NCBI RefSeq assembly: GCF_040412425.1
Contig: NC_089782.1
Location: forward strand, 20,090,622 to 20,154,621
From: Macrobrachium rosenbergii
Lineage: Eukaryota; Arthropoda; Malacostraca; Decapoda; Palaemonidae
Reading direction: 5' to 3'
DNA length: 64,000 nt
Shown here: one piece after another, positions 13,011-55,093 of the stretch
Layout: each line of letters opens with the position of its first letter
Numbering within the stretch: position 1 is the first letter of the stretch
Made by a program: the position numbers and the translations under genes
The notes under the pieces: generated by a model
Databases searched by the model: none
What the model was told of the DNA's origin: nothing
What the model saw: the letters and a program-made list of their open reading frames with translations, nothing else

Positions 13011-13105
13011 AAACTAATCTAAATCCCGGAAATTACAGACGATACATAATTAATAGCTTAAAAAGTGAACGAGGCGAGACAAATAAATCCTTGATCTACT
13101 TACAG

Positions 13106-13311: not shown

Positions 13312-13457
13312 GTATGCCATCTATAAGCTTCTCTTTGTTTCTAATGCTTGCCTATGTGCACAAATACACACTCACATTTACATATATATTGTACATTTGT
13401 ATATAATGTCATTTTTATACATTTGGTGCAGATGTGATTGATAATGAGTATCAGGTG

Positions 13458-25002: not shown

Positions 25003-27375
25003 CAGTAGAACTCCGGACCTTGACACTAATCTGTTCCAGAAGAAGCGTTGAGATGTGATTCAGTTGAGATACAGATGAATTTTTTCCTTAAGAAATGACT
25101 GAATATGGATTAATCCGTTCTTGACCACCAGTTATCATCTTAACCTTGCCTTTTTATACAAAAAATGACACAAATTACAATTAAATAAGTTCTGAGTTGA
25201 ATAACATACCGTATTAACCCTTTAACGCATGACCCTATTTACAAAAAGCGTCCCGTATGCGGGCGTTTGGTGAGTTAAGCGCTGAAGCGGAAAAAGTTTT
25301 TTCAAAAAATCACATGCACGCTTAGTTTTTAAGATTAACAGTTCATTTTTGGCTCATTTTTTGTCATTGCCTGAAGTTTAGTATGCAACCATCAGAAATG
25401 AAAAAATATCATTATCATATATAAATATTGGAATATATGACAGCGAAAAAAAACTTCGTATATAATTGTATACAAACGCTGTAAGCAAAACGCTTAAAGC
25501 TAATGAGTTAATTTTTTTAGTTGTATTGTACACTAAATTGCGATGATTTTGGTATATAACAAATTTTAAAACTATCAAAGCAACACAGAGAAAATATTAT
25601 CACAAAATGATGCATGAATTTGTAAGCACGGACGTAAAAAAATGTTTTTCAAAAATTCACCATAAATCGAAATATTGTGCTAGAGACTTCCCGTTTGTTG
25701 AAAAATGAAGCTAATTGATTGAATATTACTAGACTGTAAGTGTTTTAGCTTACAATTGCAGTTTTCGACCATTTCGGTCGAGTTAAAATTGACCGAAAGT
25801 CAATTTTTTCTATTTATCGTGATTTATATGGAAATATTTCAAAACTGATAAAAGGTACAACCATGAGTTATTTTTGTTGTATTGTACATGAAATTGTGCA
25901 TATTTTCATATATAAAACTTTATGTAACGACTAATTTAAAGCGGTGCAAATATTACGACAACGAGACGAAAAGAATTTCTGAGATGTTCGGCGAGTTACA
26001 GCGCAGGCGTAAGGAAAACTTTTTAAAATTCACCATAAATCGAAATATTGTGCTAGAGACTTCCAATTTATTGCAAAATGAAGTTAAACGATTGAATATT
26101 ACTAGAATGTAAGAGTTTTAGCACAATTGCGTTTTTGACCATTTCAGTCGAGTCAAAAGTTGACCGAAGGTTGAAATTTTGCAGTTATCGTGATTTATGT
26201 GAAAATATTTCAAAACTGATAAAGCTACAATCATGAGCTATTTTCTGTTGTATTATACATGAAAGTACTCATTTTCATATATAAAAGTTTATGTAACGAC
26301 TAATGTAAAATGCAACATGACGAAAGAATTTCTGAGATGTTCGGCCAAGTTACTGTGGCGAGGCGTAAGGGAAAAAATTTTTTTCAGAAATTCACCATAA
26401 ATTGAAATATTGTGCTAGAGACTTCCAGTTTGTTGCAAAATGAAGGTACATGATTGAATATTACTAGAATGTAAGAGTTTTAGCTTATAATTGCGTTTTT
26501 ACCATTTCAGTCGAGTTAAAATTGACCCGAAGCTTGAAATTTTGGCAGTTATCGTGATTTATATGAAAATATTTCAAAACTGATGAAAGCTACAACCATG
26601 GGTTGTATTTTTGCTGTATTTTACATGAAATTGTACACATTTTCATAGATAAAACTTTATGTAACAGCTAATATAGAACAGTGCAAAATTACGACAAAAT
26701 GACAAAAGAATTTATGAAATTTTCGGCTGAGTTACCCGTGCATAAGAAAAAGTTTTTCAAAAATTCACCATAAATCGAAATATTGTGCTAGAGACGTCAA
26801 TTTGTTGCAAAATGAAGGTACATGATTGAATATTAGTAGAATGTAAAATTTTAGCTTACAATTGCGTTTTCGACCATTTCGGTCGAGTCAAAGTTGACGA
26901 AGGTTGAAATTTTTTGTAGTCGGCGTGCGGGTGCGTCCACTCGGCACCCAACAGACAATTTTAGTCGACATATGATACGTTCAATAGGCGTTTAAGGGTT
27001 AAATGTGCTTTTTTATTTTAAAATGTTTGTATAAAAAACTGCCCTAAGTCCAATGCGGCTGTATTACCAATGGACGACCGCATAAGCTAGGCTAGGTAAT
27101 AAATATACTAGGTAGGCACAAAAATTTTTGTAAAAACTATAATTATTTCAGTAAATTAATAAAATATAAAAAAATAAGCCAAATTATATCTGTTATCAGT
27201 TTAAGAAAAACTGCTTGACAATACAGCAGTAGCTTGCCTTTCAGCCATTTGCCATGAGCAGATGTAAACAAACCTCAACGCTGCCCTGGTTAGACTATCA
27301 CGGTAAAACACAGACATTTACAACAGTAATATTTATGGTAAATTTCATTGTATACTGGAATGTACTATATTACCC
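25003..27375 (-). mobile_element. Tigger-type element, 3' terminal fragment (host of TTAA element A)
   Basis: Starts with TA then CAGTAGAACTCCGGACC and aligns, reverse-complemented, with the right end of the 45414-51581 Tigger copy. GGATTAATCCGTTC, GACCACCAGT, AACCTTGCCTTTTT and ACCGTATTA lie on the left side of the inserted element. TAGGCTAGGTA, AATAAGCC.AATTAT, GAGCAGATGTAAACAAACC and TTATGGTAAATTTCAT lie on the right side. It lacks the transposase part and the other terminus, ending near 27375. Confidence 0.85.
25218..26998 (+). mobile_element. TTAA-flanked element, family 1, copy A (1781 bp, about 370-bp tandem units)
   Basis: TTAA at 25214-25217 and 26999-27002 flank ends CCCTTTAACGC and GGCGTTTAAGGG, which are imperfect inverted repeats. 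Inside, the landmark CACCATAAAT(C/T)GAAATATTG recurs at 25658, 26031, 26393 and 26766 (spacing 373, 362, 373). Each unit carries TTTATGTAACGACTAAT-like, ACAACCATGAGTTAT-like and CATTTCGGTCGAGT-like segments. No transposase is encoded. The TTAA target and the C-C-C end fit piggyBac-like non-autonomous elements. Confidence 0.85.
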
Positions 27376-28571
27376 TCACAATAAGGTACACAATCCTTTA
27401 TCTGAAATCCTCGGGGCCAGATGTTTCGGTTTTTTTAATTTTTCAGATTTTGGAACTGGGGCCAAGAGCATAAACAAAATTACTGCAGCAAAGACAATTT
27501 TTTCCCTTTTTTCATTACAGTTATTTATTCATTATGGTATAGTTTATTATTATTTATATTAATACACTATTATAAGAATGTGAGATAATTAAAATCATCA
27601 ATAATAAATTAGTGGAACAATTAAGACCATATGTTCACTAACATTTTTTCAACAAAAACTTTCCATAAAATGCAAAAATATACACGATCAGAATAATTGT
27701 AATTCAACTTGTGAATTTTAACGATAAGTACAACTATAAAATATATCTCATCTTATCGATCTTGGATAGGATTGTTCTTTATTGTTACTAACGTCGTCAT
27801 CAGTTTGTGGTCATTAATTTGAGGTAGGTCCAGGAATAGGAGTCGCAAGTGATGATGCATCACTATGAGACTGTTGTGGGATTTTTCATACCACTCTATA
27901 TTTAAGTTAAAAATATTGTTAAATTCATGTTTTCATGAAGAAATAATTATATAAAACAAATTATTTTGTAATTTTTGCAAGCTTCAGTCAAATAATCACA
28001 ATCAAGGCAACGTTCTAACTTAGTGCCATACACACAGTTTTAGAATGAAATGTCTAAAAATAGAACAGAAGTCTAGGTCTCTCACTGACAACTAGCCAGC
28101 AAATCAGGTTTTAGCTGTACAGTATTCTGCCTGAGAAAGAACGTTTCACTCGCATGACGACATAAGTTTGTGTTTTAAATACAGTACAGTACGTAGTTTT
28201 AAATAGTTAAAAGATGTATTACCTGTACTACACATTTTTAAACATTATGAATACACACACTATGTGCTAATATCTATTAGTTAAAGAGATCAAATTAAGA
28301 GTGTGTGTTCATCTCTCGAGGAATGTTAATCCATTTGTTTTTAAGTGAATGACAACATTTTTGTATTCCAAAGAAATAATACCTGTACTTTACATTTTTA
28401 AAACATTATGAACACATACTGTGTGCATACCCAATGGAGAGAGATAGAGAGGGGGGGATATATATTATTTAAGACTCTAAGGCTTGGCAAATGTACAATT
28501 ATTTTATTATCTTGGGATTCTGACTGCTATCCGTACGTAATCTGTTTTAAACCTTTTTCCGCTACTTCTAG

Positions 28572-29124
28572 GTTCTCACAGTGCGATGACAGTCCAGTTC
28601 AACATTTTATGCTCCCAAGTGGAGACATAGTTTCAGGCAAATCATACGAGGAAGCAAAACAGAAGTACTTGAGGCAAAAGTATTCTCCAAAGGAATCCTC
28701 ATCAGAGTCAAAGAATACTGCAAAATTCAACTATCCATCTGTGTCTCACAGGACTTCTATGACTGCAGAGTACTCTCTCCAACTACCTCATCAGGAATCT
28801 CTCGAGTATTATCAGTTAAATGACTGGAACAGTAAGGAACAGCAAATAGTTCACTATTCACACACAAATTCCTCTGACCAATTAGGTCATTGTGTGGAAT
28901 CTGAGAGCAACTGTTTTTCTAGCAAGCTCAGCAGTTGCAACAGTGCAAACAAAGACCTGGATCAGTTTGAAGGCAGCACATCAAACCTAAAGAAGGCAGA
29001 TGATTGTTTTGGAATCCAAAATTCCAGTCTCATGAAAATCCCAGACAATTCCTTTCAAACTGCACCTGGAGGTTATAACCATAAAATGGAAAGAGATGAT
29101 AAAAATGGAATCTTTACAATCTGA
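28572..29124 (+). CDS. r-type opsin, last exon: long cytoplasmic C-terminal tail and stop
   Basis: Acceptor ACTTCTAG ends at 28571. The first G completes a Gln codon, then FSQCDDSPVQHFMLPSGD begins 183 residues to TGA at 29122-29124. The tail is hydrophilic and rich in Ser, Asn, Gln and Tyr. It has several Ser/Thr clusters that could be receptor-kinase and arrestin sites (inference) and no membrane segment. Assignment to the opsin rests on strand, order, matching phase 2, the intact frame and a poly(A) signal 53 bp after the stop. No homologue of this segment was recognised, so it carries less certainty than the TM exons. Confidence 0.72.
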
Positions 29125-29176
29125 TCTATAGCTATAAGACTATTCACATTATCATCACTTTCATCTTTTAGCTCTA

Positions 29177-29182
29177 AATAAA
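29177..29182 (+). promoter_or_regulatory. Poly(A) signal AATAAA of the opsin gene
   Basis: Canonical AATAAA 53 bp after the opsin stop codon, in an AT-rich 3' region. Confidence 0.75.
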
Positions 29183-30379
29183 CATATCATACACTTATGT
29201 ATATTACTATATTATATTATGTTAAAAGATATTTAAAAAAATACTGTACATATTCTAGGATGTATACAATGAAATGTTGTGCAAATGCAAATAAGCAATA
29301 TAAAGACAACTAACTCCATGATTATTTTATTTCACATCTGCTTCCTAGTTCTATTACTTCATTTCACTATTACATTTTGTTTTATTTATTCCTTCTTTTG
29401 TTCAGTGTTCTTCTCTTTGTGAATGCTTGATAGTTGTCACTTGTAAAAATGCAGTAACAGACTGATTGCGAAACTTATGGAAGTGGAGCTGTTCAGAAGA
29501 CACCCCCAAGCAGGACAAAGCTTAGGACACTCCACGGAGATCCAAAAAATACTTTTGTACAAAAAAAAAGGGGGCAGAGTTTCATGAGTTGTTACTGATG
29601 TCTGAAACTAATAAGTGTCTCAGCACTCTGAAGAGGGAGCATGGAATCTACTGCCCAAGCTGGTGCCTTTAATTGTGCTGGAAAGTATGTTGGTGCTATA
29701 GTTGGTGTTCCATGACATGGCAAACATCTCTAGCATGGACATATTCACTTGCCACAAAACCTTGCAGATGTCAGAATGAATAGACAACTCTATAGGAAGG
29801 CTCTTATGAGCACTGCTGAGATTACCAATAAAGACTACAAATCCTCTGAACAAACTGAGGTTAAGATAGTAGCCTTGCCCAGCCTCCATCTGAGGCATAC
29901 GAAAACATCAGGAGTTTGAGATTTTGCTGAACTAATGATACTTGTTACTAATGATACTAGTACTCTTTAAAGTAGCTTCTGTTGGTCCCATCACCAAAGA
30001 AGATTGTCAAGCAGTGTCTGTGGTTGGGATGCAGATGAATGGAGATATCATGGGGGCCTTCCAACGTGAAGGCTAAGAGGGAATAAGTGACAGAGGAACC
30101 AGCATCTCCAAGATACCAGGTGCCCTGTCAAAACTGTCAAGGCTTGGCTGTAGGTCAAGGGTGATGAGGAAACTCCCAAATTGCATTCTATACCCTGTCC
30201 CCAAAAAGCATCCAATAAAACTCCTCCTTGGAATATGTATAAAATGCAAGCTGTTACACACTCAAAATCTTAATCTAAAACCTATATATATACCCCAGAA
30301 TATCATAAATGACATGCAAAAGATATAAGATGTAAGGGTCCACACTTAAGCAATATACGATAGGTCCAAATCTACATCA

Positions 30380-31060
30380 GGCATAGAATTTGCAGCTGCA
30401 TCACCCAACAAAACATTATAAATTCCTTGCCAAACAATGACATTGTTTTCACAGCAGACTTATGTGCAACAGGATCAGCCACGAACATTACTGAAGATGT
30501 GCCACTTCAGAAATTTGTAATTTTGCTATAGAAACCTTTCGAAATTACAATCCAAAAAATACAATTTCACAACAACCAAAATTTTCACTTCACAAATTAT
30601 ATGGAAGATGGTAAGAATGTAGAAATAAGTTGGACTCCTGCCCATGTAGGCATTAAAGAAAACAAAGAAGCTCATAAAACAGCCAAAGCTGCCTGTTACA
30701 ATCAGCATCTCTAAAACTCATTATAATCAATAAATGGCAGAATATATATATGTGAAAATGATAGCAACATATTCAAAGAAATTAAGGCCAATGTTGGAAT
30801 ACATACAAGGAACTTTGACATCTTAGAAAATGTCACTCTTGTCTGACCCCAAGATATTTGATGACTATCCCACATAATGCAATCTCCATTATGTACAGAC
30901 TACAGAGTAACATTATTAACATTTAAACATACAATGTGAGAATGTCCAAAAATGCAATCTCCATTATGTACAGACTACAGAGTAACATTATTAACATTTA
31001 AACATACAATGTGAGAATGTCCAAAAATATAATAGACCTTGAATGTCAAGTTTTTTGGAA
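30380..31060 (+). mobile_element. LINE fragment encoding an RNase H domain end (degenerate)
   Basis: The plus strand reads VEISWTPAHVGIKENKEA then HKTAKAA at about 30619-30690. This matches the RNase H signature W.PGH.GI.GNE.AD..AK of jockey/CR1/I-type LINEs. Further on, PLCTDYRVTLLTFKH and then ECP fit the C-terminal C....T..H...C motif, with a stop inside. It is a dead copy, oriented like the opsin. Confidence 0.72.
30876..31026. repeat. 75-bp exact tandem duplication within the LINE remnant
   Basis: The unit starting AATGCAATCTCCATTATG repeats at 30876 and 30951 without visible mismatch, implying a recent event or an assembly artefact. Confidence 0.95.
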
Positions 31061-32340
31061 ACAAATTTTGTCAGTCTCCATATTCTACCAAGGATTTTAC
31101 AAAATTTTTAGAGGGCTGTAATTTATTAAAAAAAACCTACACCTTTTCATTAATAAAGACAAATCCATCAAGCACTGTGCGAGCTAAATAAAACAGCTCA
31201 GTGGTCTGGTTAATCTACTTAATAGTAATATCTCTGTGTTTTTGTCAATATGCATCCACAATAAGTTGCCCTGTGTGAAAGGGACAAGTGGGACTTCTCC
31301 AAAATGACTTGTAGGCTGAGGACCAAACCCTGTGTGAAGGGATCAGATGGGGCTTCTCCAAGTAAACCAATAGGCCCAAGGACTGAAACAAGTCCAGAAG
31401 AAGCTAAGGTGCTTCTTTAATTCCTCCCTAGAAAAAAAAAGGCAGTTATCCACATATGTACTTAAATGCAGACCCAGACAATAAGCCAAGGTGGCCACTG
31501 GGGCTGGAGTCCTGGTGAAGACCTGAAGGGCTGTATACAGACTGAAGCAAAGGGCTCAGAACTGGAAGATAAGGCCCTGCTATACAAAGGGAAGAAATTT
31601 CCTAGAGTGGGTGGATCGAGTTGTGAAAGCATGCATTCATCAGGTCTACTGAAGGAAGTTACAGTCAACAATACACACCAACCTTTTGTCAGAGAAACTC
31701 ATTGAGGTAGCCAAGATCTTTAATTGGTCCCCAACCACCTGAGACTTTAAAACAAGGATACACAAATTGTAGAATCTATGCTTCACTAGACTGGAGGGGA
31801 AAGAATCAAAGGTGATCAGTTAGGACAGCTGGGGAGGAATCATGTTGAACAGCTGGTAACCATTATGAAGAACCTTCAAAACTCATCTCTGTGCTAATAA
31901 GCTTCCAAGCTTTCAAAAAACTCAGAAGACAGATCCTGATCTGAACACTGGAGAGAAGACTAAAAGGGATGGTAAAGCTTAATCTTTGTTGGGAATCTCT
32001 ATCTGGAATTTGGCATGGAACTGGCGTTGGCCATTGTAATGAAAGGTTGACTCAGAACTGCACTCACTGCACTCTTCAAGATGGCAACTTATCTTCAGGG
32101 TCAGTGGAGCATCGGTTGGACATGTGCAGTGAACTTTTCTCCTTGCAAGCTCTTTCAAGCTGGTCTGACCAGATCAGTTTGCACTGAACACATTTTTACA
32201 ATTAAAATACATATTTTACAATTGTAGAATATGTGTTTTATTGCAATAACATAGTTTTACTTGAGCTTAACATCTAAATATCTAAACAATACCCTAGTGC
32301 TAAGTTTCAAGAACCAAATAATACAGATGTAACCCCTTAT

Positions 32341-32346
32341 TTTATT
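32341..32346 (-). promoter_or_regulatory. Candidate poly(A) signal for REV1
   Basis: TTTATT on the plus strand (AATAAA on minus), about 250 bp past the REV1 stop. Another lies at 32237-32242. Confidence 0.4.
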
Positions 32347-32597
32347 TATGTAAGGTACATGTGTGGGATTGTGGTTTTACATGTTATTTTAATGGCATGA
32401 ACAAAACTAAATGAATTAAATATTAAAAAAAAAAATTTACACTTAAAGATTAAATTAGTTAATTTGAACTATGTATTCCAAAACACATTTCTTTTACATA
32501 GTTATAAAGAGGTAGTACATATTATTGATTAATATCACAGACATGTTTCTATGCTAATGAATACCATATTAAAGCATGAAAAACTTAAACAGACCTT

Positions 32598-32730
32598 TCA
32601 AGATTCTTCTATCATAAGGGAGGGCACTTTCAGCTTTCCTTCATAATGATGTAACATAACACTCTGAACTCTGTCTACAACATTGTGGTATGCCAACCGC
32701 CACAGCCGATTACAGGTACGTATGACTTGC
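32598..32730 (-). CDS. REV1: REV1, last exon: end of C-terminal domain
   Basis: The first base completes an Arg codon from the previous exon. It then reads QVIRTCNRLWRLAYHNVV, continues through VQSVMLHHYEGKLKVPS and stops at TGA (32598-32600). The pattern W..A...V...VQ.V......GKLKV matches the final helix and tail of the REV1 C-terminal domain in animals. Acceptor TGTATTTCAG precedes it. The intron before it begins with GC rather than GT (see 33060-33211). Confidence 0.93.
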
Positions 32731-33059
32731 CTGAAATACAAACTCTTTAAGTAGTGTTATTCACCTCATATAAACCAGTCAAACGATTTAAATGCTATGC
32801 TGCCTTTATGATGTAGAATGGAAAACTATACAAAAGCTATAAATTGTTTTAATGGATTCAGCTGTCTACTAAATACAATGGACAGCTGCAAGTGGAGAAG
32901 GTTAAGAACTCTCAGTCATCCCTGTGTAGGATTACACAAGAGCAAATTAAACTTTAAGATATGTAATTTTATCTACTTTCAAATCATGGTACATAATTAA
33001 GTATAAGGATATGAAAATTACTTTACTAAGCTTTCTTGAAAATGTGAAAATTCACTTGC

Positions 33060-33211
33060 CTGTAAAAATACTTGATGAGAAGGTCAACTTTCTCTAGATC
33101 TCGAAAAATAACAAGGTTACTGTAGTAAGATGCTATTATATCCACATCTTCCTCTTCTGGATTAGGACAGGATGACACCCACTCACGAATGAAGTCTTTC
33201 ACCTCATTTAA
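33060..33211 (-). CDS. REV1: REV1, core of the C-terminal polymerase-docking domain
   Basis: Encodes LNEVKDFIREWVSSCPNP and then, after acidic residues, IIASYYSNLV and RDLEKVDLLIKYFYR. This is the four-helix domain by which REV1 binds REV7 of polymerase zeta and the short REV1-interacting peptides of Y-family polymerases. V..(F/L)(I/L)REW, P.EED and (K/R)DLEK.DL.IKY match known REV1. It is phase 0 at the start (acceptor TTGCAG) and phase 2 at the end. The donor is AG|GCAAGT, a GC-AG intron, supported because the next exon restores the frame and the homology exactly. Confidence 0.95.
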
Positions 33212-34079
33212 CTGCAAGAGATGCAATCAATGGGCAACATATACATATGGAATACATACATTTTTTCATTTAAAAATTCCAGTCTCAACACCTGATGGCT
33301 CTTCCTTTCTTTTACTGTTATTAAGCCTTAACCCATTATCTGGTCTTAAGTTAAAGTCCAAATACATTTATAACGGCTTCTATAACATTGTATTTTTTAA
33401 AAGATAAAATTTTATTTGTATATATTTTCTTTTGGCCTTTCTTTTATTTATATGTGATATACAAAGATACTGTACACACTTAATAATATGCTATGGAACC
33501 TTTCTTTGATTTTCTACTAAGTTCATGAAAAGCAAAAACTATTTCTAGACCAACACAGACATGCAAAACCAATACGATCAAACATAACCTATGATAAAAT
33601 GTGCCTTGATCTTGATACATTCTAATAATTTTGAGACTTCAACCATTTCAATGCATGGGAAAGAACCTAGTGACTGGCAAATAGCTGCATGTGCTTGAAT
33701 GAACTTGGAAAGCGATATTTTTCAATTTAACTGTTTGTTGTTGATATTCTTTACAAGATGATTTTTCAATATAAGGCAATGTAAAGCTTTCCTTCGTTTT
33801 CTTAGACAAATCATTGTTCTTTCCTTCGTTTTCTTAGACAAATCATTGTTCAAAGTCAAAGGGCTTCAGTATACTGCATGATAACCATAAGCAAGTTATA
33901 TTATTTCAAAATGATTTCCAGCCAAATACTAATGTAACAGCTTGATTAATCAGAGCCAAATGCTATTTAATATATGGACTGTTTGAAACAAATACATGAA
34001 TGAACAAAATACACATAATGCCAATGTTTAGGTAATTTAAATATTATATGAATGGCACTGCAGATGTTCAATGTCTCAC

Positions 34080-34352
34080 CTCTACTGCCCCACACAGCTG
34101 AGGAATTTCTTCAATTGGGTCTTGCAAATAAGTATTTTCTTGACAAGTTTTCTGATCTGACAACAGATTGTTAATGCTGCTATCAACAGCACTATCTTGA
34201 CTTGAGTTATCTTCTACATGTGTGGCACTAACAAACCCACCCATGATGACTTCCTTGGAGGATATTGAAGAGGTCTTCATCTTGGATTTTACAGGGCTTT
34301 TCTTGTTACGGTTATTTAGAGACTTAGGAGGTCTTCCCCTTCTCTTCCCACC
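34080..34352 (-). CDS. REV1: REV1, linker exon with basic AT-hook-like motif
   Basis: 91 codons, phase 0 at both ends. It opens GGKRRGRPPKSLNNRNKK, a basic stretch with an RGRPPK core, probably a nuclear-localisation or DNA-contact segment. An acidic, Ser-rich disordered linker follows, ending PQLCGAVE, which abuts the C-terminal domain as GAVE does in vertebrate REV1. Acceptor GGCTCCAG is on the high-coordinate side and donor GTGAGA on the low side. An internal ATG is not a start. Confidence 0.88.
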
Positions 34353-35044
34353 CTGGAGCCAAAAAAATTATGGAAAATCTTTTAGCTACAAAATCCTTCA
34401 GAAAAATGTAAAAACTAATCCTGATATAAATGGACTGCACTCATAAGTTTGTAAGAACACAAAAGAAGATTGAGAGATTCTAGAGTAAAGCTATATTTCC
34501 TTCTAATACACCAATTATGAAACCTAGGTGAGCACAATACAACATAAAACAAGCCATAAAATGAGTTTATATAGCAAGGGGTAAACAGACTGAATTTTCC
34601 TTAACCTCCTAGAAAGAATTAGATCATAAGTATTTTTACTTTTGCTGACACAGCACCCTAAAGGAACTATCACTACAATGTGAAAGGACCCTGCAGGTGG
34701 GTTTGATCAAGGTGCAAAGTTTCCTATACAGTTTACCCAACATAAGTATATATCACTAGTTTCCTTAGTAAACTCTGCACACAAATCCAATAACTTGTTA
34801 AAAATATAACATCCCAATAACAATCAAACATATCTTGATTGACTGTCCCAGATGGCAGCATGAAAGAAATACTTATTTACAAAATAAATCAATAAAAGAT
34901 ATTCTAGCTAAAGGTAATAACTTTTCAATTAATAATATTATTCTCTTCTAAAAATTAAATTAATAAATAAAATATAATTCGTCTCCCCCTTTTTTTCTAT
35001 ATTTATTCCTCCCCCTCTCTTTTATTCCTCCCCCTCTCTTTTTT

Positions 35045-35111
35045 CCAGCCCGAGAAGAACCCTAAAAGAGTTCAGAGGTCTGGTTAAACAAATCATTTAT
35101 AACTAACTAAC
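35045..35111 (+). mobile_element. Second copy of the (TAAC)-tailed retroposon end
   Basis: About 67 bp starting CCAGCCCGAGAAGAACCC are identical to 12603-12669, with a shorter (TAAC)n tail. A target-site duplication was not seen here. A duplicated CTCCCCCTCTCTTTT tract lies directly before it. Confidence 0.8.
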
Positions 35112-35157
35112 CAGCAGCATAGGGTATGTGATGAAGAAAATTACTTTTTTATAATAA

Positions 35158-35412
35158 AATAAAGTTTTATATATACTTACCAAGTAATTACATAGCTATA
35201 GTTTCCACTCGAACGGCAGCTTGAGATTCAAAATTTCGTGGGTAGCGCTTCAATATAGTTTGTGTAGGAGATCAGCCTGTCCCACTAACAGAATACTGGA
35301 ACAACCTAGCAAACAATTCTCATTCGTTTTATGCCTTACGTCCATCAGAGGGGAGGAGGGTGGGCTCCTATTCTGTAATTACTTGGTAAGTATATGTAAA
35401 ACTTTATTTTAT
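35158..35412. mobile_element. MITE-like element with about 40-bp inverted ends
   Basis: ATATACTTACCAAGTAATTA near 35171 is mirrored by TAATTACTTGGTAAGTATAT near 35375, and outward flanks AAAGTTTTA / TAAAACTTT extend the inverted repeat. The first 170 bp (35164-35333) are also repeated, inverted, at 42646-42816. Confidence 0.7.
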
Positions 35413-36417
35413 TAAAAAATTTAATTTTTATATACGTAACTTACCAAGTAATTACATAGCTGAATCCCACATTGACAGGAGGTGGGATACAACGACATAG
35501 TATTCTACTCCAAAAGCATTAAGTCATGTAATGAATTTGAAACAGAAAAGTTGCGAGCATTGAATACAATGCTTGTCATTCCTTATTAGTTAAGAGAGCC
35601 TGCAGTATAAAACTGCAACTGGTTGTCGCTCAACTTAACCTGTAGTGGCATGGCGGTAGAGCCAAGGGTCGCCTCTACTAAGTGGGAGCTTCGTAGTGAA
35701 GGAGTACTCCGATGGCTACCAAAGCATCGGTGGAAGTTATGCACCTAAGGAGTTATCCAATAGTTAGCAAAACTTTAACAGGTGCCCTTGCCCTGGGCAC
35801 AGTACCAATGTAAAAAATAACCAGATACAGTCACCTACAATGAAATAACACCACAACCCATCCACTGAGAGTGGTGGGTGCTCCAGGTACTTTGTACCTC
35901 CTGGCTCTTAAAAAACTCTATACCTTACTAGAAGGTGAAGAGATAGGAGAAAATCTTATAATTCAACCTGCCATACCACGCCAGTCACTATCCTGTGGTA
36001 CTGCAGAATTTACACGTTACTTAGCTAGTGCCAGTCTGGAGTTGGCGTCAGGCGAGCTGTGGAAGCTCGCAGATTGGTATAAATATCGCTGGTGCCAAGC
36101 GAGCTGGGTGCTAGGCGAACTGGGTGCCAGCTGAGCCGCTGGGAGATCACAGATGCCTTAAGCTCTAAAGTTGGCACCAGACTGTAGCTGGTGCCAGGTA
36201 AGCTGAGCACCAGGGAAGCCCGAAGCTCTGGGCGCTGGGGGCTCTATAGCTGGGGCCAGACTTGTAACTGGCGCCCGAAGAGCTGGGTGCCAGCAGAGCT
36301 AGAAGTTCAGGTTTCACTTCTTAAGACAGTGAGATGAGATGCAAAGGACGATTATACTTCCAGTTGGTCGATGCAGAATGGAAGTAATGGACATATGTGC
36401 CTGTGCGACGTGAAGGA

Positions 36418-43298: not shown

Positions 43299-43779
43299 CT
43301 GAAAAACAAAAAAAAGTGTACTTTTTTATTACATTAATTTTTACCAGTACAAGAAAATTCTGAAAGGTTATGAACTTCACATTCAGTTCCAAAGAAAATT
43401 ATATTCCATTTTTTTTTTCAACATGACATTAAATCTGTAAACAAAGGTACTGTATTATTCTTTGGTTGCTTCTCCAAATAAAATGAAACTGCCTTTACAA
43501 AAATTAATTTGATTATTAGATAAAAAAAAATTCCAAAGAGAGAATTTTGTCTTTGTCTCTTAACCCTTACAAACTTGGATAAATATACATTAACAATACC
43601 CTGAGACTGGGCAAACTTTAAGGCTGGCCAGTTTAAAAAAAAATACATTACTGCAAAGAAGAAAAATTGTAAAAATGCATGGTATATGAAAAAACACATT
43701 TCCTGTAACTTATGACATTTAGAGTAACTATTTTCAACCCTGTGCAGGGCCTCTTTTCCAAAATACTCTTACAAATACG

Positions 43780-44120
43780 CTATTTTATTGACATGTTCTT
43801 TCTAATAATATCTTTTTTTTTTAAATTTATTTTTCAAAATTACAATTACAGCTCACATACTATTGAAAAAGATATGAACTACAGTCAGCAATGATCCTGG
43901 AGTATATTTATGGAGAAATATTTAAAAGATGCATTGGGATGGGGAGGTGTAGTAACTTTTAGCGAGTTATACATGTTCTTTCTAATATTATTTGTACTTT
44001 GCAAAATTGCAATATTGTACTTTACTTCACAAAATTACAATTGTAGCTGACATACTATCTAAAAGATAAGAACTAAAACTGGCAACAATCCCCAAGTATT
44101 TTTATATGCACATAAGGTGC
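43780..44120. repeat. Imperfect tandem duplication, about 180-bp unit
   Basis: ACATGTTCTTTCTAATA, CAAAATTACAATT, CATACTAT and AAAAGATA..AACTA occur in the same order twice (from about 43790 and 43970). Confidence 0.75.
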
Positions 44121-44849
44121 ATTTTCTCGTTTGCCCATCTTTACACATCATGTGATTGGTAACTTTTTATCTTCAATTGCAAATCCAGAACTTAATTAAA
44201 CCTCCACGATTCAAAGGTTATTTGGCTCTACAGTACTGTAAACCCCCGTATTCGCATTCTCACGATTTGTGGATTTCTCGATGGAACATACATACACATT
44301 ATTCGCGGAAAATTCGCCCATTCGCAGTACTTTTCACTGAGAAATATTTACTGATGACTGTATTTTTCATTAATTTCATGACTAAATGCACTTTTTGTGA
44401 TAAAACTATTAAAATACTCAGGTAGCCAGGTAGTGCTCGAGTTACGATAATTTGACTTTGCGGTGGGGTAAGCAATTAATACCAATACGACAATATTTAT
44501 AAAATATTTTTAACTTTCGAGTGGGCGTAGGCTGCAGCGTACAATCAGGCAGCGAGAGAGACCAAACTACAGTAGACCAACTTCTTTTCCTCCATCTTTA
44601 TCCCATCTTCTAGTTAAAAAGTATAAGAGAATGATAAAAGTAATGTTAGTAATGTTATACTCTTGCATAAATGCACACAGTCATAAACTGAACAAGAAAC
44701 TGTTGTTTTGCTTATAACAGAATTGGATAGCAGCAGCCATTTTGCTTTTATTTCAACCATTGTACGGTAGTAAGCAATTACCGTAGTTGTTACAAATGAC
44801 ATTAGGTAGAATAGGACTGATAGATTTTTACATTATATCCTTATTTGCT

Positions 44850-44990
44850 ATGGATAAAAGATTAGCAAGGAAATATACTGCTAAATTCAAACTGCAAGTT
44901 GTAGCTGAAGCTAAGAAAAAAATGTTCAAGTTGATAATGTCTATAAATCATCGTGCATCATCAACATGGATGAAACTTGACTTTAATTAA
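44850..44990 (+). pseudogene. pogo/Tigger-like transposase remnant with internal deletion
   Basis: Opens MDKRLARKYTAKFKLQVV then AEAKKK, which resembles the start of the DNA-binding helix-turn-helix of pogo-type transposases (..YTAKFKL.V...A). After a few codons the sequence jumps, in another frame, to a motif NMDET (44963-44977), like the N.DET around the first catalytic Asp in the family. Most of the DNA-binding region and the rest of the catalytic domain are gone. It looks like an internal-deletion derivative. Confidence 0.6.
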
Positions 44991-45720
44991 AATCGGACAG
45001 AAAGTATTTTAATTGAAACTACTGGGCATGAAAGAACACACTGCTGCTGTTTTTACTCCGATAAACAATAAATACATTAAGCTCGTATTACGATGAAATC
45101 AAGTAGAAAAATAGTGAACGGAATCTTGATTTTTTTTTACACAACCCAACGTCATCTATTAACGAAAAAAATTGCTAAATTAATTTCACAAAGAGATGTA
45201 TTTAAGTTATATTTTGACTTGAAAAAACACTTCATATAATGAAAAATAACCTTGCCTCATATAAATAAAGTATCTAGAGATTCATTTACACTAACTAGAA
45301 GCAAGAAAAGTACTCTGAACCGAGTTAAATACGGCGAAATAAACTTACCACACAATCGATTTCCAAACCAAAATACTGATCGCAATTCATAATACAAAAG
45401 CAATATAAGAATACAGTAGAACCCCAGTCCTCGACCGTGTCAGAACTTGACATAATCGGATTTTGACGTGAAATGTTGAGTAAATTTTGCGTCAGAGCTC
45501 GAACAACAAACCAGAATCCGGCCCGATGAATCATATGATGTTTTTAAACAAAAGTGTTTCAGTCAGCCGCCACTAGTTGGCGCTGCTGTGGCGTTCTTCC
45601 CAAGCATATTTAAAAGCGTATAAAGCCCACACACGCTGCTGCTGTTGTTTGGAGTAGTACACGCTTGCACAGGTATATGATCAGTTTTTTCGGCTTTCTG
45701 CACTGCATTTTCATCAAATC

Positions 45721-47385
45721 ATGAGTCCCAAGACAGCCGTTGCTGACAAGCAGAAGAGAAAGACAGTAAGAACTACAATAGAACTTAAGAGATTATTGAG
45801 AGTGTGAAAGATGAATTCGTGTAACTGATTAAGCATCGCAGTTTAAGCTACCTAGGTCCACCATAAGCACATTTTTGAAGAACAAAGAGGCTATAAAAGT
45901 GCTAGTGTTGCTAAGGGGGTTTATGAGTTTGACTAAACAGAGGTCTCCCATAATAGATAAAACTGAGAAATTATTATTAGTTTGGATAAATGAAAAACAG
46001 ATTGCTGGGGATAGTGCATCAGAGGCTATGATTTGTGCAAAGGCTAAAAGTTCGCATGCTGACCTTATGAAAAACAGAGCCGGATCAAGTAGTAGTACTG
46101 AGCACCAGTTTATGGCCAGTAGGGGATGGTTCGACAGATTTAAGAAAAGAAGTGGCATCCAAAGTGTTGTACGGCATGGGGAGGCAGGGAGTGCTGATAA
46201 GAAAGCTGCAGAAAAATATGTTAAAGAATTTCAACAGTTTGTGGACGAAAATGCCAAAGAGGACCTACATTACTAAAGAAGAGAAGAAATTGCCTGGCCA
46301 TAAACCAATGAAAGTTTGGCTAACTTTGTTATTATGCGCGAACGCTAGTGGAGATTTGAAAATAAAGCCTCTGTTAGTTTGCCACTCAGAAATCCCTAGA
46401 GTTTTTAAGAAACATAAGGTATTAAAGACCAAGTTAAATGTGATGTGGAAGTCAAATGCTAAAGCTTGGGTAACAAGGCAAATTTTTAGAGAGTGGGTTT
46501 CTGAAATGTGTGCCCCCAATATAAAGAAATACCTTCAGGAAAAAGATTTGCCACCCAAGGCACTCCTCGTATGGATAATGCCCCTGCCCACCCCCAGACA
46601 TGGAACATGAGTTGGCAGGTGAGTTTAGCTGGCTGAAGGTCAAGTTTTTGCCACCCAGAACTACCTCACTAATCCAGCACATGGACCAGCAGATCATTGC
46701 TAACTTCAAAAAGCTCTACATAAAGGTGCTTTTCCAAAGGTGTTTTGAAGTTACCAGTGAAACTAGCCTAACTCTGACCAAATTCTGGAAGGAACATTTC
46801 CACATTCTGAGTTGTGTCAGGCTGATAAACAAAGCATGGACAGATATTTCTAAGAGGGCTCTAAGAGCAGCTTGGAGAAACCTTTGGCCTGATGGGGCTC
46901 CTCTTAGGGGCTTTGAAGGTTTTGATGCCCCTAGTCAGCTTGGAGATGACCCTGAAGCTGAACCACTTCCTCTGCCTGACCCAGATGTTGAGGAAATTGT
47001 TTCTGTGGCCAAGTCCATGGGCTTGGAGGTGAGTTCTGATGACATCAAGGAACTGGTGACAGAACACAACACTGAGCTAACAATGGAGGAACTCCAGGAA
47101 CTTCACGAGGAGCAGCAGAAGATTTTGGCTGAGGAGGTGTCTGGAGAGGAGGAGAGCAAGGAGGAGTCAACTTCTAAAAAAATAAAGGAGATGCTTCTGC
47201 ACTGAGAGAAATTCCAAGAGTTCTTCGAGAAGCATCACCATGACAAGGAACTAGTAAACCAGGCTATTGACTACGCTGATGATAATTTAGTCAATGTTTA
47301 CAGAAAAAAGCTGAAGAAACGGGCAACAGCAGACAACGCTGTTCAAGCTTTTGTCAAAAGAAGAAAGCCAGCCCAGTCCCAGTGA
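45721..47385 (+). pseudogene. Tigger (TIGD1-like) transposase, inactivated
   Basis: Starts MSPKTAVADKQKRK, with an early stop at about 45805 and a worn first helix-turn-helix. The CENP-B-type DNA-binding half follows (EKLLLVWINEKQIAGDSAS, ASRGWFDRFKKRSGI, SVVRHGEAGSADKKAAE). A deletion then removes the region of the first catalytic Asp, joining QFVDE to KMPKRTYITKEEK with a frame change. LTLLLCANASGD and WVTRQIF are intact. The second catalytic region (DNAPAHP in the family) is broken by a one-base shift near 46575. The C-terminal part (46600-47205) is open, with KFLPPRTTSLIQHMDQQ and acidic helices. It ends after another stop at about 47203. It resembles vertebrate Tigger1/TIGD1 closely along its length. 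At least three lesions make it non-functional. Confidence 0.92.
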
Positions 47386-47499
47386 AAAAAGGCTAAGGGA
47401 AAAACTCCTAAGAGCAGCAACCAGATTTTATGGAAGGAGATTCCCCCTCCAACCAATGACGCTCTCTCCATAGCTCCCCTCCACAGATCCACATCCTCA

Positions 47500-48160
47500 T
47501 TAATGTCAAGGTATGGGCCCTACTGTAGTTGTTAAAAACTTTTTTAATGTTTATAAATGACCTAGAGGTACAGTGAATAATATATTCATGCAAGTTAAAG
47601 CAATGAAAGAGGTCATAAATATTGAGTTATACTAACAGTACATTTCATTTTGTGTTTAATCCACAGGTTACTGTACAGTACTGCACTTCATTGAATGTCC
47701 TAGAGCCGCTCAGTCGTCCATAGTATGGACCCATGTTGTATTAGTTGTTAAAAACTTTTAATGTGCTTATAAATGACCTAGAGATGATTGTTAGATTGAG
47801 GATTTTGTTTATTATTACAGCTCATAACAGTAAATAATATTTCTACATTTCATTTTGTGTTTAATCCACAGATTACTGTACAGTATACACTTCATTGAAT
47901 GAAGTTCCTGGAGAAATTCAGTGCATGCTGTTTGAGGGGCAACTGCAATTATTCATCAATGTCAAGGTATGGGTCAAGCTGTACTAGCTGTGAAAAAGTT
48001 TTTAATGTTTATAAATGACTTGGAAATGCTTATAAGATTAAGGATTTGTGTGTAGATTACAGCTCATAACAGAAGTACAGTAACTAATATTTCTACATTT
48101 GATTTTTTGTTTATTCCACAGATTTACACTTCGTTGAATGACGGTCCTGGAGAAGAGCAG
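47500..48160 (+). repeat. About 210-250-bp tandem repeat, 3 copies, in Tigger 3' region
   Basis: Each copy carries TTAATGT-TATAAATGAC(C/T)T, TTTCTACATTT-like, GTTTAATCCACAG (47657, 47863; weaker at 48110) and CTTCATTGAATG. Confidence 0.8.
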
Positions 48161-48419
48161 CTGTGTAACATACAGTACAGAGAGTGTACAGTATATTTCA
48201 ATTTAGGTGTAGTAGCAGCAATGTGTACATAGTTTAAATTTCAATTTAGGTGTAGTAGTAGCAACATGTATGTATGTACAGTACTGTATAGCATTAATTA
48301 ATGTCTTTATATGTTTGTGCTAGTATTAAGGATTCCTTGTGTACAGTAGACTAGTTTTACTAATTATGTTAAGTACATACAGTAATAAAATGAAAAATGA
48401 GTTAATTTCAGGTTTTCTT

Positions 48420-48720
48420 ATTTATCCCTTTAATACTGCATAGTAACGGTTACACGAAGGCGGTACGCCTCTTAAGATTTTGTGTTGTCTATGTAGGGAC
48501 TATTCCTCTGTCCCTCAAAACTCCATTTTTTTTTTCCTCTTTAATACTGCATAGTATCGGGTACACGGAGGTGTAGGCCTCTTAAAATTTTGTGTTGTCT
48601 ATGTAGGGTTACTTTCTCTCTCCCTCAAAACTCCATTTTTTTTACCTTTTTACTATTGCATAGTACTGGGTACAGTACAAGAAGGTGGTAGACCTCTTAA
48701 GATTTCAGTTTGAAAGGTGT
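48420..48720 (+). repeat. About 118-bp tandem repeat, 2.5 copies
   Basis: Shared TTTAATACTGCATAGTA, GCCTCTTAA, ATTTTGTGTTGTCTATGTAG and CCCTCAAAACTCCATTTTTT. Confidence 0.85.
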
Positions 48721-49220
48721 AGAGCAAAACAAAGAGCATCGGAGGTTGTCCACTACTGCCGGGTGTATGATGAAGCAAAACATTGCTGGTTATCTACATT
48801 CAGACATTTGGATATTACGTATACAGTAGATGATAAAAAGTTAGTACAGTACATATAGTACGTATGTAACTTTTAATTTGGAAACAAGTGTAATCTCTGA
48901 AATACAGTACTGTACATAATGTTGTAGATGGGAAAGTGTTTACATGGCAACCAGGGTGTCATGCTAGATTTTTTTTTGACAGAGACGCACGTGTGCATTT
49001 CTGTAGTGAATACAATTTTTACGTGTGCTGTTCGGTAGTGAACGCCTTCTTAAGCTTCTCGGTAAAGAAGAGGTTAGCCTGAGGTTAACTCTGAGAAGCT
49101 GCTTACAAGGATATTTTATGGAAAAAAATATGTTAGGGTGTCTTAACATTTATTGAAAGATGTTTTACAGTAATTTTGTACACTATTCCAGTAGACTGTA
49201 TGAAATTTACCATAAGTTAA

Positions 49221-51018
49221 CCCTTTAACACCGAAGCCCTATTTACAAAAACGTCTCCCGTATGCCAGCGGCATTTGGTGAGTTAGCGCCCGGAAAGCGA
49301 AAAAAGTTTTTTCAAAAAATCACAGCACGCTTAGTTTTCAAGATTAGAGAGTTCATTTTGGCTCATTTTTTTTTGTCATTGCCTGAAGTTTTAGTATGCA
49401 ACCATCAGAAATGAAAAAAAATATCATTATCATATATAAATATTGGAATATATGACAGCAAAAAAAAACTCGCATATAATTGTATACAAATCAAGGCCAA
49501 AGCAAAACGGTTAAAGCTAATGACTTAATTTTTTTAGTTGTATTGTACACTAAATTGCGATGATTTTGGTATATAACAAATTTTAAAACGATCAAAGCAA
49601 CACAGAGAAAATATTATCACAAAATGATGCATGAATCAGAACGCCTGGACGTAAAAAATGTTTTTTCAAAAATTCACCATAAATCGAAATATTGTGCTAG
49701 AGACTTCCCGTTTGTTGAAAAATGAAGCTAATTGATTGAATATTACTAGACTGTAAGTGTTTTAGCTTACAATTGCAGTTTTCTCGAACCATTTGGTCGA
49801 GTTAAAGTTGACCGAAAGTCGATTTTTTCTATTTATCGTGATTTATATGAAAATATTTCAAAACTGATAAAAGCTTACAACCATGAGTTATTTTTTGTTA
49901 TATTGTAATGAAATTGCGCACATTTTCATATATAAAACTTTACGTAACGACTAATATAAAATGGTGCAAATATTACGATAACGAGACGTAAAGAATTTCA
50001 GAGGATGTTCAGCTTGAAAGTTACAGCAAGAGACGTAAGCGAAAATTTTTTTAAATTCACCATAAATCGAAATACAGCTAGAGACTTTCAATTTATTGCA
50101 AAATGAAGGTAAACGATTGAATATTACTAGAATGCTTAAGAGTTATAGCTTATAATTGCGTTTTTTACCACGTCGAGTTAAAGTTGACGAGCTTGAAATT
50201 TTGGCAGTTATCGTGATTTATGAAAATATTTCAAAACTGATAAAAGCTACAACCATGAGTTATTTTCTGTTGTATTGTACATGAAATTGCGCACATTTCC
50301 ATATATAAAACTTTATGTAACGACTAATATAAAACAGTGCAAACATTACGATAACGTATCTAAAGAATTTCTAGGCGCAGATGTAATGAAAAGTTTTTTC
50401 AAAAATTCACCATAAATCGAAATATTGTATAGAGACTTCCAATTGGTTGCAAAATGAAGGTAAATGATTGAATATTACTAGAATGTAAGAGTTTTAGCTA
50501 CAATTGCGTTTTTGACCATTTTGTCTCGAGTCAGTTGCCCAAAGGTTGAAATTTTGGCAGTTATCAGTGATTTATTATGAAAATATTTCAAAACTGATAA
50601 AAGCTACAACCATGAGTTATTCTCTGTTGTATTGTATATGAAATTGCGCACATTTTCATATATAAAACTTTATGTAACAGCTACTATAGAACAGTGCAAA
50701 AATTACGACAAAATGACGAAAGAATTTCTGAAATTTTCAGCCGAGTTACCATGCTGGGCGTATAAAAAGTTTTTTTTCAAAAATTCACCATAAATCGGAA
50801 TATTGTGCTAGAGACTTCCAATTTGTTGCAAATGAAGGTACATGATTGAATATTACTAGAATGTAAGAGTTTTAGCTTACAATTGCGTTTTTCGACCATT
50901 TCAGTCGAGTCAAAGTTGACCGAAGGTTGAAATTTTTGTAGTCGGCGTTTGCCAACATCCACTCGGCATTTAACAGACAATTTTAACGACGTTGCTACGC
51001 CCAACAGGCGTTTAAGGG
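49221..51018 (+). mobile_element. Level 4: TTAA-flanked element, family 1, copy B (1798 bp)
   Basis: TTAA at 49217-49220 and 51019-51022. The ends are CCCTTTAACACCG and CAGGCGTTTAAGGG. The CACCATAAATCG landmark occurs at 49675, 50058, 50408 and 50786 (spacing 383, 350, 378). Same orientation and organisation as copy A. It sits inside the Tigger element, so it is younger than that insertion. Confidence 0.88.
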
Positions 51019-52248
51019 TTAATACTGAACGTAAACAACATTTATGTAATTAGTACCGCGATACGCCACCAGGATGGCACTTTGGTTTGTTTACATCTGC
51101 TCAAGCCACAAGCTTCCTAATGCCGATGTAACTTAGGAAATTGTTCTTAAGTTTATGTTAGCAGACATAATTCGGCTTATTTTTAATATTTTAATATTTT
51201 ATTGTTAACAACAGTTGTTTTGTGTACCCGTTACAGCACACTCTAGTAGTGCCTATAGGCTACCTAGCCTAACCTATGGCGCTCGGTCTACCATCAGTAA
51301 TATGGCTGCACTGGTTGTGACCCAGTTTTTTTTAACAGTATGCATTTAAAAACAAAAAAGTTCATCTAATACGGTAAGTTATTTAACTCTGAACTTTTTT
51401 AATTGTTATTTGGGCAATGTTTTGTACAAAAAAGGCAAGGTTGGGGTAATGACTGGTGGTCAGGAACGGATTAATCCATTTTCAGTTATTTCTTATGGGT
51501 GAAATTGATTCGGAATTCGACTAAATCGAATCTTGACACTTCTCCTGGAACGGGTTAGCGTCGAGGACCGGGGCTCTACTGTATATACAATATTACTGAA
51601 TACAGTGAAGTAAAGCATAACATCTTAAAAATATCTATGGAAAAGATGCATATTCGTTATGTTGATGTTTGTATAATAAGATATTAATGTGCGAATATAG
51701 AGTACGGTATAATGTAGGCTAGGCTGCTGTATATGTATACGATATACCAAAGCGTAGGCTAAGTTAATTCTTGTTTGTTATTCAATTTCTCTCTGTATTG
51801 AATTATCATAAGTCACTCTGCATGGACCTCCAGAATTAGCTGATATTAATAATTACTATACCATGTATGTATAGAGTATACTTTATAGTGTAGGCTAGGC
51901 TACCATATATGTATACATGGCACTGAATACCCCAGTGTAGGCTACGCTATATTTGAGATAAGTTTTTTTCCAACAAATGATGGGTTTTTTGGAACCTAAC
52001 CCCATTGTAAGTAGGATAATACTATAAGCATATTTAGAGTTTTTTTTTTTTTTTGAACTATCAAAATAGGCAGTTCTAAGTGTCTTTTGAAGGGTTTTAA
52101 GTATTCACAGATTCTAGTTATGGGGGGGGTATGCATCCCTCGCAAGTATGGGGGTTTACTATACTATCCCCCGCGAATATGGGGGGCTTACAGTATTATC
52201 ATTGTCTGAAAGGAATTGAACTCCTTACCTCTGGGTCTACTCTCTTCC

Positions 52249-55093
52249 AAAGCCCATATGTTTTATCCCCCCTCCTAAAATCATGATTATGGCTATTCGT
52301 GATTAACCCATAAACGCCTACTGACGATCATACGATAAACTAAAAATTGTCTGTTGGTGTCAAGTGATTGCATCGCACGCCGACTACAAAAAATTTCAAC
52401 TCGTCAACTTTGACTCAACTGAAATGGTCGAAAACGCAATTGTAAGCTAAAACTCTTACATTCTAGTAATATTCAATCATGTACCTTCATTTTGCAACAA
52501 ATTGGAAGTTCTCTAGTACAATATTTCGATTTATGGTGAATTTTTGAAAAAACTTTTCCTTACGCCTCGCCATGGTAACTCGCCGAAAATTTCAGAAATT
52601 CTTTCGCTCATTTTGTCGTAATTTTTGCACAGTTTTATATTAGCGTTACATAAAGTTTATATATGAAAATGTGTGCAATTTCATGTAAATATAGCAAAAT
52701 ACAACCATGGTTGTAGCTTTTTATCAGTTTGGAAATATTTTCATATAAACCACGATAACTGCCAAAATTTCAACTTCGGTCTATTTTTTGACTCGACCAA
52801 AATGGTCAAAAACGCAATTGTAAGCTAAAACCTTACATTCTAGTAATATTCAATCATTTACCTTCATTTTGCAACAAATTGAAGTCTCTAGCACAATTTT
52901 TCGATTTATGGTGAATTTTTAAAAAACTTTTCCTTACGTCCGCGCCAGAAATTCTTTCATCACGTTAATACGTAATGTTTGCACCGCTTTATATTAGTCG
53001 TTACATAAAGTTTTATATATGGAAATGTGCGCAATTTCATGGTAGAATACAACAGAAAATAACTCATGGTTGTAGCTTTATCAGTTTTGAAATATTTTCA
53101 TAGAAATCACGATAACTGCCAAAATTTCAACCTTCGTCAACTTTACTCGACCAAAATGGTAAAAACGCAATTATAAGCTAAAACTCTTACATTCTAGTAA
53201 TATTCAATCATGTACCTTCATTTTGCAACAAACTGGAAGCCTCTAGCACAATATTTCGATTTATGGTGAATTAAAAAAAAAAAAAAAAAAACTTCCACGC
53301 CTGCACGCGTAACTCGCTGAACATCCTCAGAAATTCTTTTTCACGTTGTCGTAATGTTTGCATCGTTTACACTAGTCGTTACATAAAACTTTTATATATG
53401 AAAATGTGCGCCAATTTCATGTAGAATACAACAGCAAATAGCTCATAGTTTAGCTTTATCAGTTTTGAAATATTTTCACATAAATCACGATAACTGCCAA
53501 AATTTCAACCTTCGTCAACTTTTTAACTAGACCAAAATGGTAAAAACGCAATTGTAAGCTAAAACTCTTACATTCTAGTAATATTCAATCATTTACCTTC
53601 ATTTTGCAATAAATTGGAAGTCTCTAGCACAATATTTCGATTTATGGTGAATTTTTTGAAAAATATTTTCCTTCACGCCCGCGTAACTCGCCGAACATCT
53701 CAGAAATTCTTTTGTCACGTTGTCGTAATATTTGCACCGTTTTATATTAGTCGTTACATAAAGTTTTATATATGAAAATGTGTGCAATTTCATGTACAAT
53801 ACAACAGAAAATAACTCATGGTTGTAGCTTTATTAGTTTTGAAATATATTCATATAAATCACGATAAATAGAAAAATTGACTTTCGGTCAACTTTAACTC
53901 GACGAAATGGTCGAAAACTGCAAATTGTAAGCTAAAAACACTTACAGTCTAGTAATATTCAATCAATTAGCTCATTTTTCAACAAACGGGAAGTCTCTAG
54001 CATAATATTTCGATTTATGGTGAATTTTGAAAAAAACATTTTACGTCCAGCGTTCACATAATTCATGCATCATTTTGTGATAAATATTTTCTCTGTGTTG
54101 CTTTGATCATTCTACAATTTGTTATATACCAAAATCATCGCAATTTAGTGTACAATACAAAGAAAAAAAAATAACCCGTTAGCTCTAACCGGTTTGCTTA
54201 CAGAGCGATTTGTATAAAATTATATATGAAAAATTTTTTTTGCGCTGTCATATATTTCAATATTTATATATGATAATGATATTTTTTTCATTTGTGATAG
54301 TTGCATACTAAACTTCAGGCAATGACAAAAAGGAGCCAAAAATGAACTCTTAATCTCCAAAAACTAAGTGTGGTGTGATTTTTGAAAAAACTTTTTTCCG
54401 CGGCAGTGCTAGCTCCCAACGCGCGGCATACTTGAGCGTTTTGGTAAACAGAGGCTCGGCGTTTAAGGGTTAACAGATTTCTATAAATGAAAAAAAAAAT
54501 TAAAGCCCATATGCTTTATCCCCCCTCCTAAATCACAATTATGGCTATTCATGATTAACAGATTTCTATAAATAAAAAAAAAAATCAAAGCCCATATGCT
54601 TTATCCCCCCTCCTAATTCATGATTATGGCTATTCATGATTAACAGATTTCTATAAATAAAAAAATCAAAGCCCATATGTTTTTTATAACCTCCTAAATC
54701 ACGATTATGGCTATTCATGATTAACAGATTTCTATAAATAAAAAAAAAATCAAAGCCCATATGCTTTATCCCCCCTCCTAAATCACGATTATGGCTATTC
54801 ATGATTAACAGATTTCTATAAAAAAAAAAAAAATCAAAGCCCATATGCTTTATCCATCCTCCTAAATCATGATTATGGCTATTCATGATTAACAGATTTC
54901 TATACATAAAAAAAAATCAAAGCCCATATGCTTTATCCCCCCCTCCTGAATCACGATTATGGCTATTCATGATTAACAGATTTCTATAAATAAAAAAAAA
55001 AAAAAAATCAAAGCCCATATGCTTTATCCCCCTCCTAAATCATGATTATGGCTATTCATGATTAACAGATTTCTATAAATAAAAATAAAAATC
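52249..55093. repeat. 84-bp tandem array, interrupted by TTAA element C
   Basis: The unit begins AAAGCCCATATGCTTTATCC and continues CCTCCTAAATCATGATTATG and CATGATTAACAGATTTCTAT, ending in an A-rich run. Starts are at about 52249, 54502, 54587, 54668, 54752, 54836, 54919 and 55009 (period 81-90). The first unit is split at its TTAA by the element at 52307-54469. Confidence 0.93.
52307..54469 (-). mobile_element. TTAA-flanked element, family 1, copy C (2163 bp, inverted)
   Basis: TTAA at 52303-52306 and 54470-54473. The ends are CCCATAAACGCC and GGCGTTTAAGGG. It is the reverse complement of copies A and B, with five tandem units: the landmark TTATGGTGAA occurs at 52531, 52906, 53271, 53642 and 54014 (spacing 375, 365, 371, 372). 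No coding capacity was recognised; short frames are repeat artefacts. Confidence 0.92.

Follow-up and report, generated by a model that had tools for sequence, protein, structure and literature searches.

The window analyzed here is a 64,000-nucleotide stretch of contig NC_089782.1 from the decapod Macrobrachium rosenbergii (assembly GCF_040412425.1, positions 20,090,622 to 20,154,621). It contains three copies, A, B, and C, of an element that carries an internal array of head-to-tail units of about 370 bp and that is very probably a non-autonomous cut-and-paste DNA transposon with piggyBac-type ends. The copies, the TTAA target duplications on their flanks, and the array of copy A as delimited by Tandem Repeats Finder (TRF) are located as follows.

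25214..25217: TTAA target duplication, left of copy A
25218..26998, + strand: copy A, 1781 bp, with units 1 and 2, a hybrid unit 3/4, and a partial unit 5
25657..26913, + strand: tandem units of copy A, with a period of 373 bp by TRF
26999..27002: TTAA target duplication, right of copy A
49217..49220: TTAA target duplication, left of copy B
49221..51018, + strand: copy B, 1798 bp, with unit 1, a hybrid unit 2/3, unit 4, and a partial unit 5
51019..51022: TTAA target duplication, right of copy B
52303..52306: TTAA target duplication, 3' end of copy C
52307..54469, - strand: copy C, 2163 bp, with all of units 1 to 5, a composition more frequent than any other in the genomic sample
54470..54473: TTAA target duplication, 5' end of copy C

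TTAA lies immediately outside both ends of all three copies. The tetranucleotide occupies 0.81% of the 4-mer positions of the window (516 in 64,000), and the chance of its presence on both flanks is ~6.5e-5 for one copy and 2.7e-13 for three. The inverted ends are CCCTTTAACGC / CCCTTAAACGCC in copy A, CCCTTTAACACC / CCCTTAAACGCC in copy B, and CCCTTAAACGCC / CCCATAAACGCC in copy C. Those of the family, CCCTTTAACGCC / CCCTTAAACGCC, are 12 bp long with one mismatch, and some single ends are mutated, such as the 3' end of copy C (CCCA). Four copies of the unit's core motif lie in A, four in B, and five in C, at a spacing of 350 to 383 bp. The last unit of the array is partial (~150 bp) and is followed by a 3' tail of ~90 bp. 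An additional degenerate unit lies within the first 440 bp at the 5' side of the element (score of 97, compared to a mean of 36.6 and a maximum of 63 in 200 shuffles of 2-base blocks). No stop-to-stop frame of at least 110 amino acids (aa) exists within any of the three copies. The initial annotation had reported these copies with the same boundaries, TTAA flanks, inverted ends, and unit numbers (4, 4, and 5), as well as the lack of an internal transposase, and both observations are confirmed in the window.

Elements of the piggyBac type have inverted ends of 12 to 19 bp that start with CC[C/T]T, and they target TTAA (PMC2872659, PMC5601938). The TTAA duplication is found in the window and in most of the copies fetched from the genome, and the ends CCCTTTAACGCC / CCCTTAAACGCC agree with the rule in length and in their first bases, so that the piggyBac traits recognized earlier, TTAA insertion and CCC ends, fit the published description. 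The TTAA duplication is also a trait of Kolobok-type non-autonomous elements, and one of these, Xmix, a T2 miniature inverted-repeat transposable element (MITE) carrying the Xstir repeat, shows the same plan of an internal tandem array (PMC6004289). Kolobok ends, however, require RR (often AG) as the 5' start of each inverted repeat, AGGRR in the T2-MITE (PMC6004289), whereas the ends of the present family start with CCC. A Kolobok-type element is rejected on this ground and is regarded as very improbable.

The insertions can be compared with related unoccupied sequence when the joined flanks of each copy are aligned with the window.

27149..27373, - strand: unoccupied sequence related to the insertion site of B, aligned over 245 columns with 67% identity, the TTAA itself being lost
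51156..51586, - strand: unoccupied sequence related to the insertion site of A, aligned over 435 columns with 72% identity and having TTAG in place of the TTAA of A
54470..55093, + strand: 84-bp minisatellite invaded by copy C, with a single unfilled TTAA kept in other units and 90 to 93% identity across the joint

Copies A and B interrupt the same host repeat, present twice, at two separate points; therefore, each locus contains an unfilled counterpart of the site used at the other. The two host repeat copies are diverged and inverted relative to each other (~24998-27373 and 49170-51586), each with a different element copy inside. The minisatellite split by copy C has its other part at 52248-52306, and TTAA lies within its units.

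The same assembly (3.18 Gb in 78 contigs) was searched with copy C, which gave 7863 first-look candidates, and 40 of these, C included, were scored. Besides C, 33 of the remaining 39 were fetched: the 20 next-best copies (L018-L037), 2 with extra units (L062 and L063), and 11 partial matches (L064-L074). A separate neighboring copy is present in three fetched loci; these three, which are not counted among the 33, are a second copy at L018 that is cut by the stretch, a second copy at L033 with a 5' end and one unit followed by other sequence, and the first copy at L037, with five units, a 3' TTAA, and a cut 5' end, which is included in the unit tree described below. TTAA flanks 27 of the 33 copies at both ends and 4 at one end, and the other 2 have a different matched 4-mer. 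The 20 next-best copies contribute 17 with TTAA on both sides and 3 with TTAA on one side; of the two six-unit copies, L063 has it at both ends and L062 at one; among the partial matches, the count is 9 of 11 at both ends, with TTAT/TTAT and TAAA/TAAA once each. These matched flanks belong to L064 (TTAT) and L069 (TAAA) and are possible non-canonical targets of the transposase. The ends start with CCC in the copies read, with few mutated exceptions (L019, L066, and L071, for example, are each altered at one end); the bases beyond the joints differ from copy to copy, and in none of the 33 copies do units run beyond the element ends. The initial annotation had named two observations as refuting, a majority of genomic copies without TTAA-bounded ends and an array continuing beyond the TTAA, and neither is seen in this sample. 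Its view that the arrays are mobile and not chromosomal satellite is upheld, as the array travels within the element. Divergence of the copies from the majority sequence ranges from 3.2 to 10.2%, with the maximum in L030 when its inserted stretch is included. This copy is interrupted near the 5' end by a stretch that resembles, by eye, a tRNA-derived short interspersed nuclear element (SINE). In L028, the 3' subterminal stretch contains TACGTCGACT twice, ~44 bp apart, which by eye may be a transposase-binding site.

A second sample was chosen irrespective of C and consists of the first five exact right ends in listing order. TTAA follows in 5/5, and the left end is visible in 3/5, all with TTAA; of the remaining two, one lacks the first ~200 bp, and one has its left end beyond the stretch. 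These five copies contain 5, 2, 5, 3, and 6 units, the three-unit copy being interrupted by foreign sequence. Genome-wide, the 16-mer of TTAA plus left end, TTAACCCTTTAACGCC, has 1462 exact occurrences compared to 2 for the reversed control, and the right end, GTAGGCGTTTAAGGG, has 1239 compared to 1 for its control. When the 100 exact left ends listed first are paired with the 85 exact right ends of the same 230 Mb, the result is five pairs of 1248 to 2190 bp, sizes compatible with ~2.5 to 5 units. A capture-recapture estimate from these five pairs gives ~1700 copies in 230 Mb and ~23,000 genome-wide, values that hold as an order of magnitude only.

Copies in which both ends were read carry 2 to 6 units, most often 5. 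Five units are present in 27 of the 33 fetched copies (20/20 of L018-L037 and 7/11 of L064-L074); the exceptions are L064 with five irregular units, L069 and L073 with four, L065 with three or four, and L062 and L063 with six. The successive spacings in the 20 best copies are 374 to 380, 367 to 408, 328 to 361, and 372 to 382 bp. A loose sixth motif match in the 5' part of L021 and L026 was excluded, as was one in L062, L063, L066, and L072. Placed in one tree, 118 units, drawn from 24 copies, group by position and not by copy. Positions 1, 2, and 3 form groups with support values of 100/99, 97/71, and 99/96, and positions 4 and 5 form a joint group (100/97) in which they are not split from each other. 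The position labels require four changes on this tree, the minimum possible, compared to a mean of 67 after shuffling. Columns diagnostic for unit 2 versus 3 and unit 3 versus 4 identify the hybrid 3/4 of copy A and the hybrid 2/3 of copy B, as well as other mixed units in L062 and L063. Judged from these sequence patterns, A and B look to have each lost one unit separately from the five-unit form. Because units group by position and the hybrids differ, the most economical origin is a founder with five units, with exchange between neighbors changing the unit number in single copies.

The position-specific units also bear on the possibility of a chromosomal satellite whose short arrays are dispersed through circular DNA or recombination, the TTAA and the likeness of the ends being due to shared flanks. 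Head-to-tail units of ~375 bp and a variable unit number speak for such a satellite, but the copies read have sharp common ends with a duplicated 4-mer, outside which their sequences differ, empty sites exist, and the units cluster by position and not by locus. A chromosomal satellite is extremely improbable and is rejected on the common ends and the position-specific units. For the transposon, one further proposal is that selection on transposition, and not only descent, holds the unit number near five, each unit serving as a binding or looping site for a borrowed transposase or a host factor and thereby aiding transposition; this is considered unlikely.

A different relation to satellite DNA would be that the element seeds it, with arrays expanding inside copies, shedding their ends, and becoming free satellite. 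Unit number does shift by neighbor exchange, gains up to six included, and such a model is in print for miDNA4 of Xenopus. However, among the copies read, which are a sample and not a genome-wide list, none has an array of more than six units or an array without an element end. Two pairs of same-strand ends on contig C2 lie 12.2 and 13.7 kb apart, and four 2.5-kb stretches read between them contain no element match; therefore, these pairs are taken as separate copies, and long arrays between them are rejected. Homogenization of units within copies (concerted evolution) is not observed either, as units are more alike by position across copies. Since neither a long array nor homogenization is seen, the family is not taken as a source of satellite DNA, and seeding is judged improbable. 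The terms "satellite array" and satellite seeding in the initial annotation are thus not sustained, given, in the copies read, a number that is mostly five (2 to 6), position-specific units, and no array outside the element.

For the piggyBac-type transposon, the following course is proposed. A founder would have had a short 5' end and the ~90-bp 3' tail, with an array of one degenerate and five ~375-bp units, the last of them incomplete, enclosed by the two. The array would then have been copied together with the element, as the unit tree supports, and unit number would later have been altered through exchange between adjacent units. A piggyBac transposase (DDE_Tnp_1_7) from another element of the same genome presumably acts in trans, cutting at the ends and inserting at TTAA. 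The repeats are probably passengers or at most spacers.

The genome contains at least 117 matches to piggyBac transposase (of 4696 candidates, 116 were scored), and in many of them the open frame is long. For 12 of these matches, sequence on both sides (0.9 to 1.8 kb each) was searched for TTAA-flanked inverted ends with a reporting threshold of 11/16 bases, which gave good pairs (13 to 16 of 16 bases) at four matches, a weak pair at one, and none at seven. At three of the four, the ends are CCTGTTAAGCGTC (15/16 bases) and delimit three TTAA-flanked piggyBac elements of ~2.2 kb at C12:61953038-61955279, C13:24355792-24358010, and C1:71523758-71525996, whose transposase frames of 582 to 587 aa have no stops in the domain match. 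The locus at 21.5 Mb of C1 has two candidate end pairs, CCAGACCACTGAGCTG (16/16) and CCCCTTACAAGATTAA (13/16). This locus (C1:21533335-21537893) holds the best transposase match, and the TTAA-flanked CCAGACCACTGAGCTG pair lies outside the CCCCTTA pair. The weak pair, at 84.6 Mb of C8, is CCCGTTATAGCCC / CCCATTAGCGCCC (11/16 bases); it was rejected as a partner, sharing no subterminal sequence with the family. In L046, L051, and L060, a family end is matched on one side only, at two mismatches; these matches were also rejected, as the other end of the family does not pair with them.

Several points weigh against the proposed transposon and its history. No autonomous element with the family ends CCCTTTAACGCC stands beside the 12 of 117 transposase matches searched, and the partner is therefore inferred. 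The empty sites of A and B are old, with 72% and 67% identity. The 33 fetched copies were picked by resemblance to C, which biases that sample toward five units. When the tree is limited to copies A, B, and C, firm grouping is confined to unit 1, the bootstrap of the large unit tree is unsettled, and single units are assigned to the correct position in 93 of 110 cases, with all misses falling on the partial unit 5. The autonomous coral piggyBac element AmiPB2 speaks in favor through its left end, CCCTTTAACGCCC, whose first 12 bp are identical to the best-kept left ends of the family, but its right end is unlike that of the family (PMC2872659).

Described systems share traits with the family. 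Xmix with Xstir from Xenopus is likewise non-autonomous, with a TTAA duplication, inverted ends, and a self-derived internal tandem array (PMC6004289, PMC12628747), but has the Kolobok-type AGGRR ends, in a comparison made by description and not by sequence; Xstir also occurs in tandem arrays and composite structures, forms of which none is seen for the present family. In Acropora corals, CMITE accompanies the piggyBac-like elements AmiPB1-6 and is a non-autonomous element with TTAA and CC[C/T]T ends (PMC2872659). It differs in its length of ~100 bp and in forming tandem arrays of whole elements, not of internal units (PMC2872659). The MITE miDNA4 of Xenopus tropicalis contains satellite monomers whose number varies, from a single monomer to an array, but belongs to the Tc1/mariner superfamily. 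In the oyster, central tandem repeats are dispersed by the non-autonomous CgHINE elements (PMC9659126, PMC7492417). These elements differ in being of the Helentron type. Helentrons are not known to have inverted CCC ends or a TTAA duplication.

A literature search covering few subscription papers found no paper on the present family, and the available passages of a crayfish repeat paper mention neither TTAA nor MITEs (PMC7859515). In a viral collection, a 16-mer has nine exact matches, a number estimated as expected by chance given the length of the word and the size of the collection, and a 25-mer of the unit has none; a 37-mer has no match in prokaryote genomes. The earlier statement that no described family has this sequence is not contradicted by this literature search, although the kind itself has already been described: this is a new family with piggyBac-type ends, of the known kind of tandem arrays on TTAA MITEs. 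Empty sites and end counts make the family a clear example of a TTAA transposon spreading a tandem array in a decapod genome, and tandem repeats reported at many loci by a repeat finder need not be satellite. Here, an internal array passed on by descent can be told from a satellite that is evolving by the position-specific identity of its units, and gains and losses of a unit are flagged by the hybrids.

Rfam and ARAGORN scans of the window return no matches. A remnant of a Tc5/pogo-like transposon with broken frames lies at 45833-47205 (+), comprising HTH_Tnp_Tc5 and two DDE_1 pieces. An exon of a rhodopsin-type receptor is located at 13013-13441 (+), and a REV1-like exon with a ubiquitin-binding motif is located at 61217-61888 (-). 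A protein search with the REV1-like frame at 61220-61867 gives eight relatives, of which the only named one is the REV1-like protein of Homarus americanus, with 32% identity.

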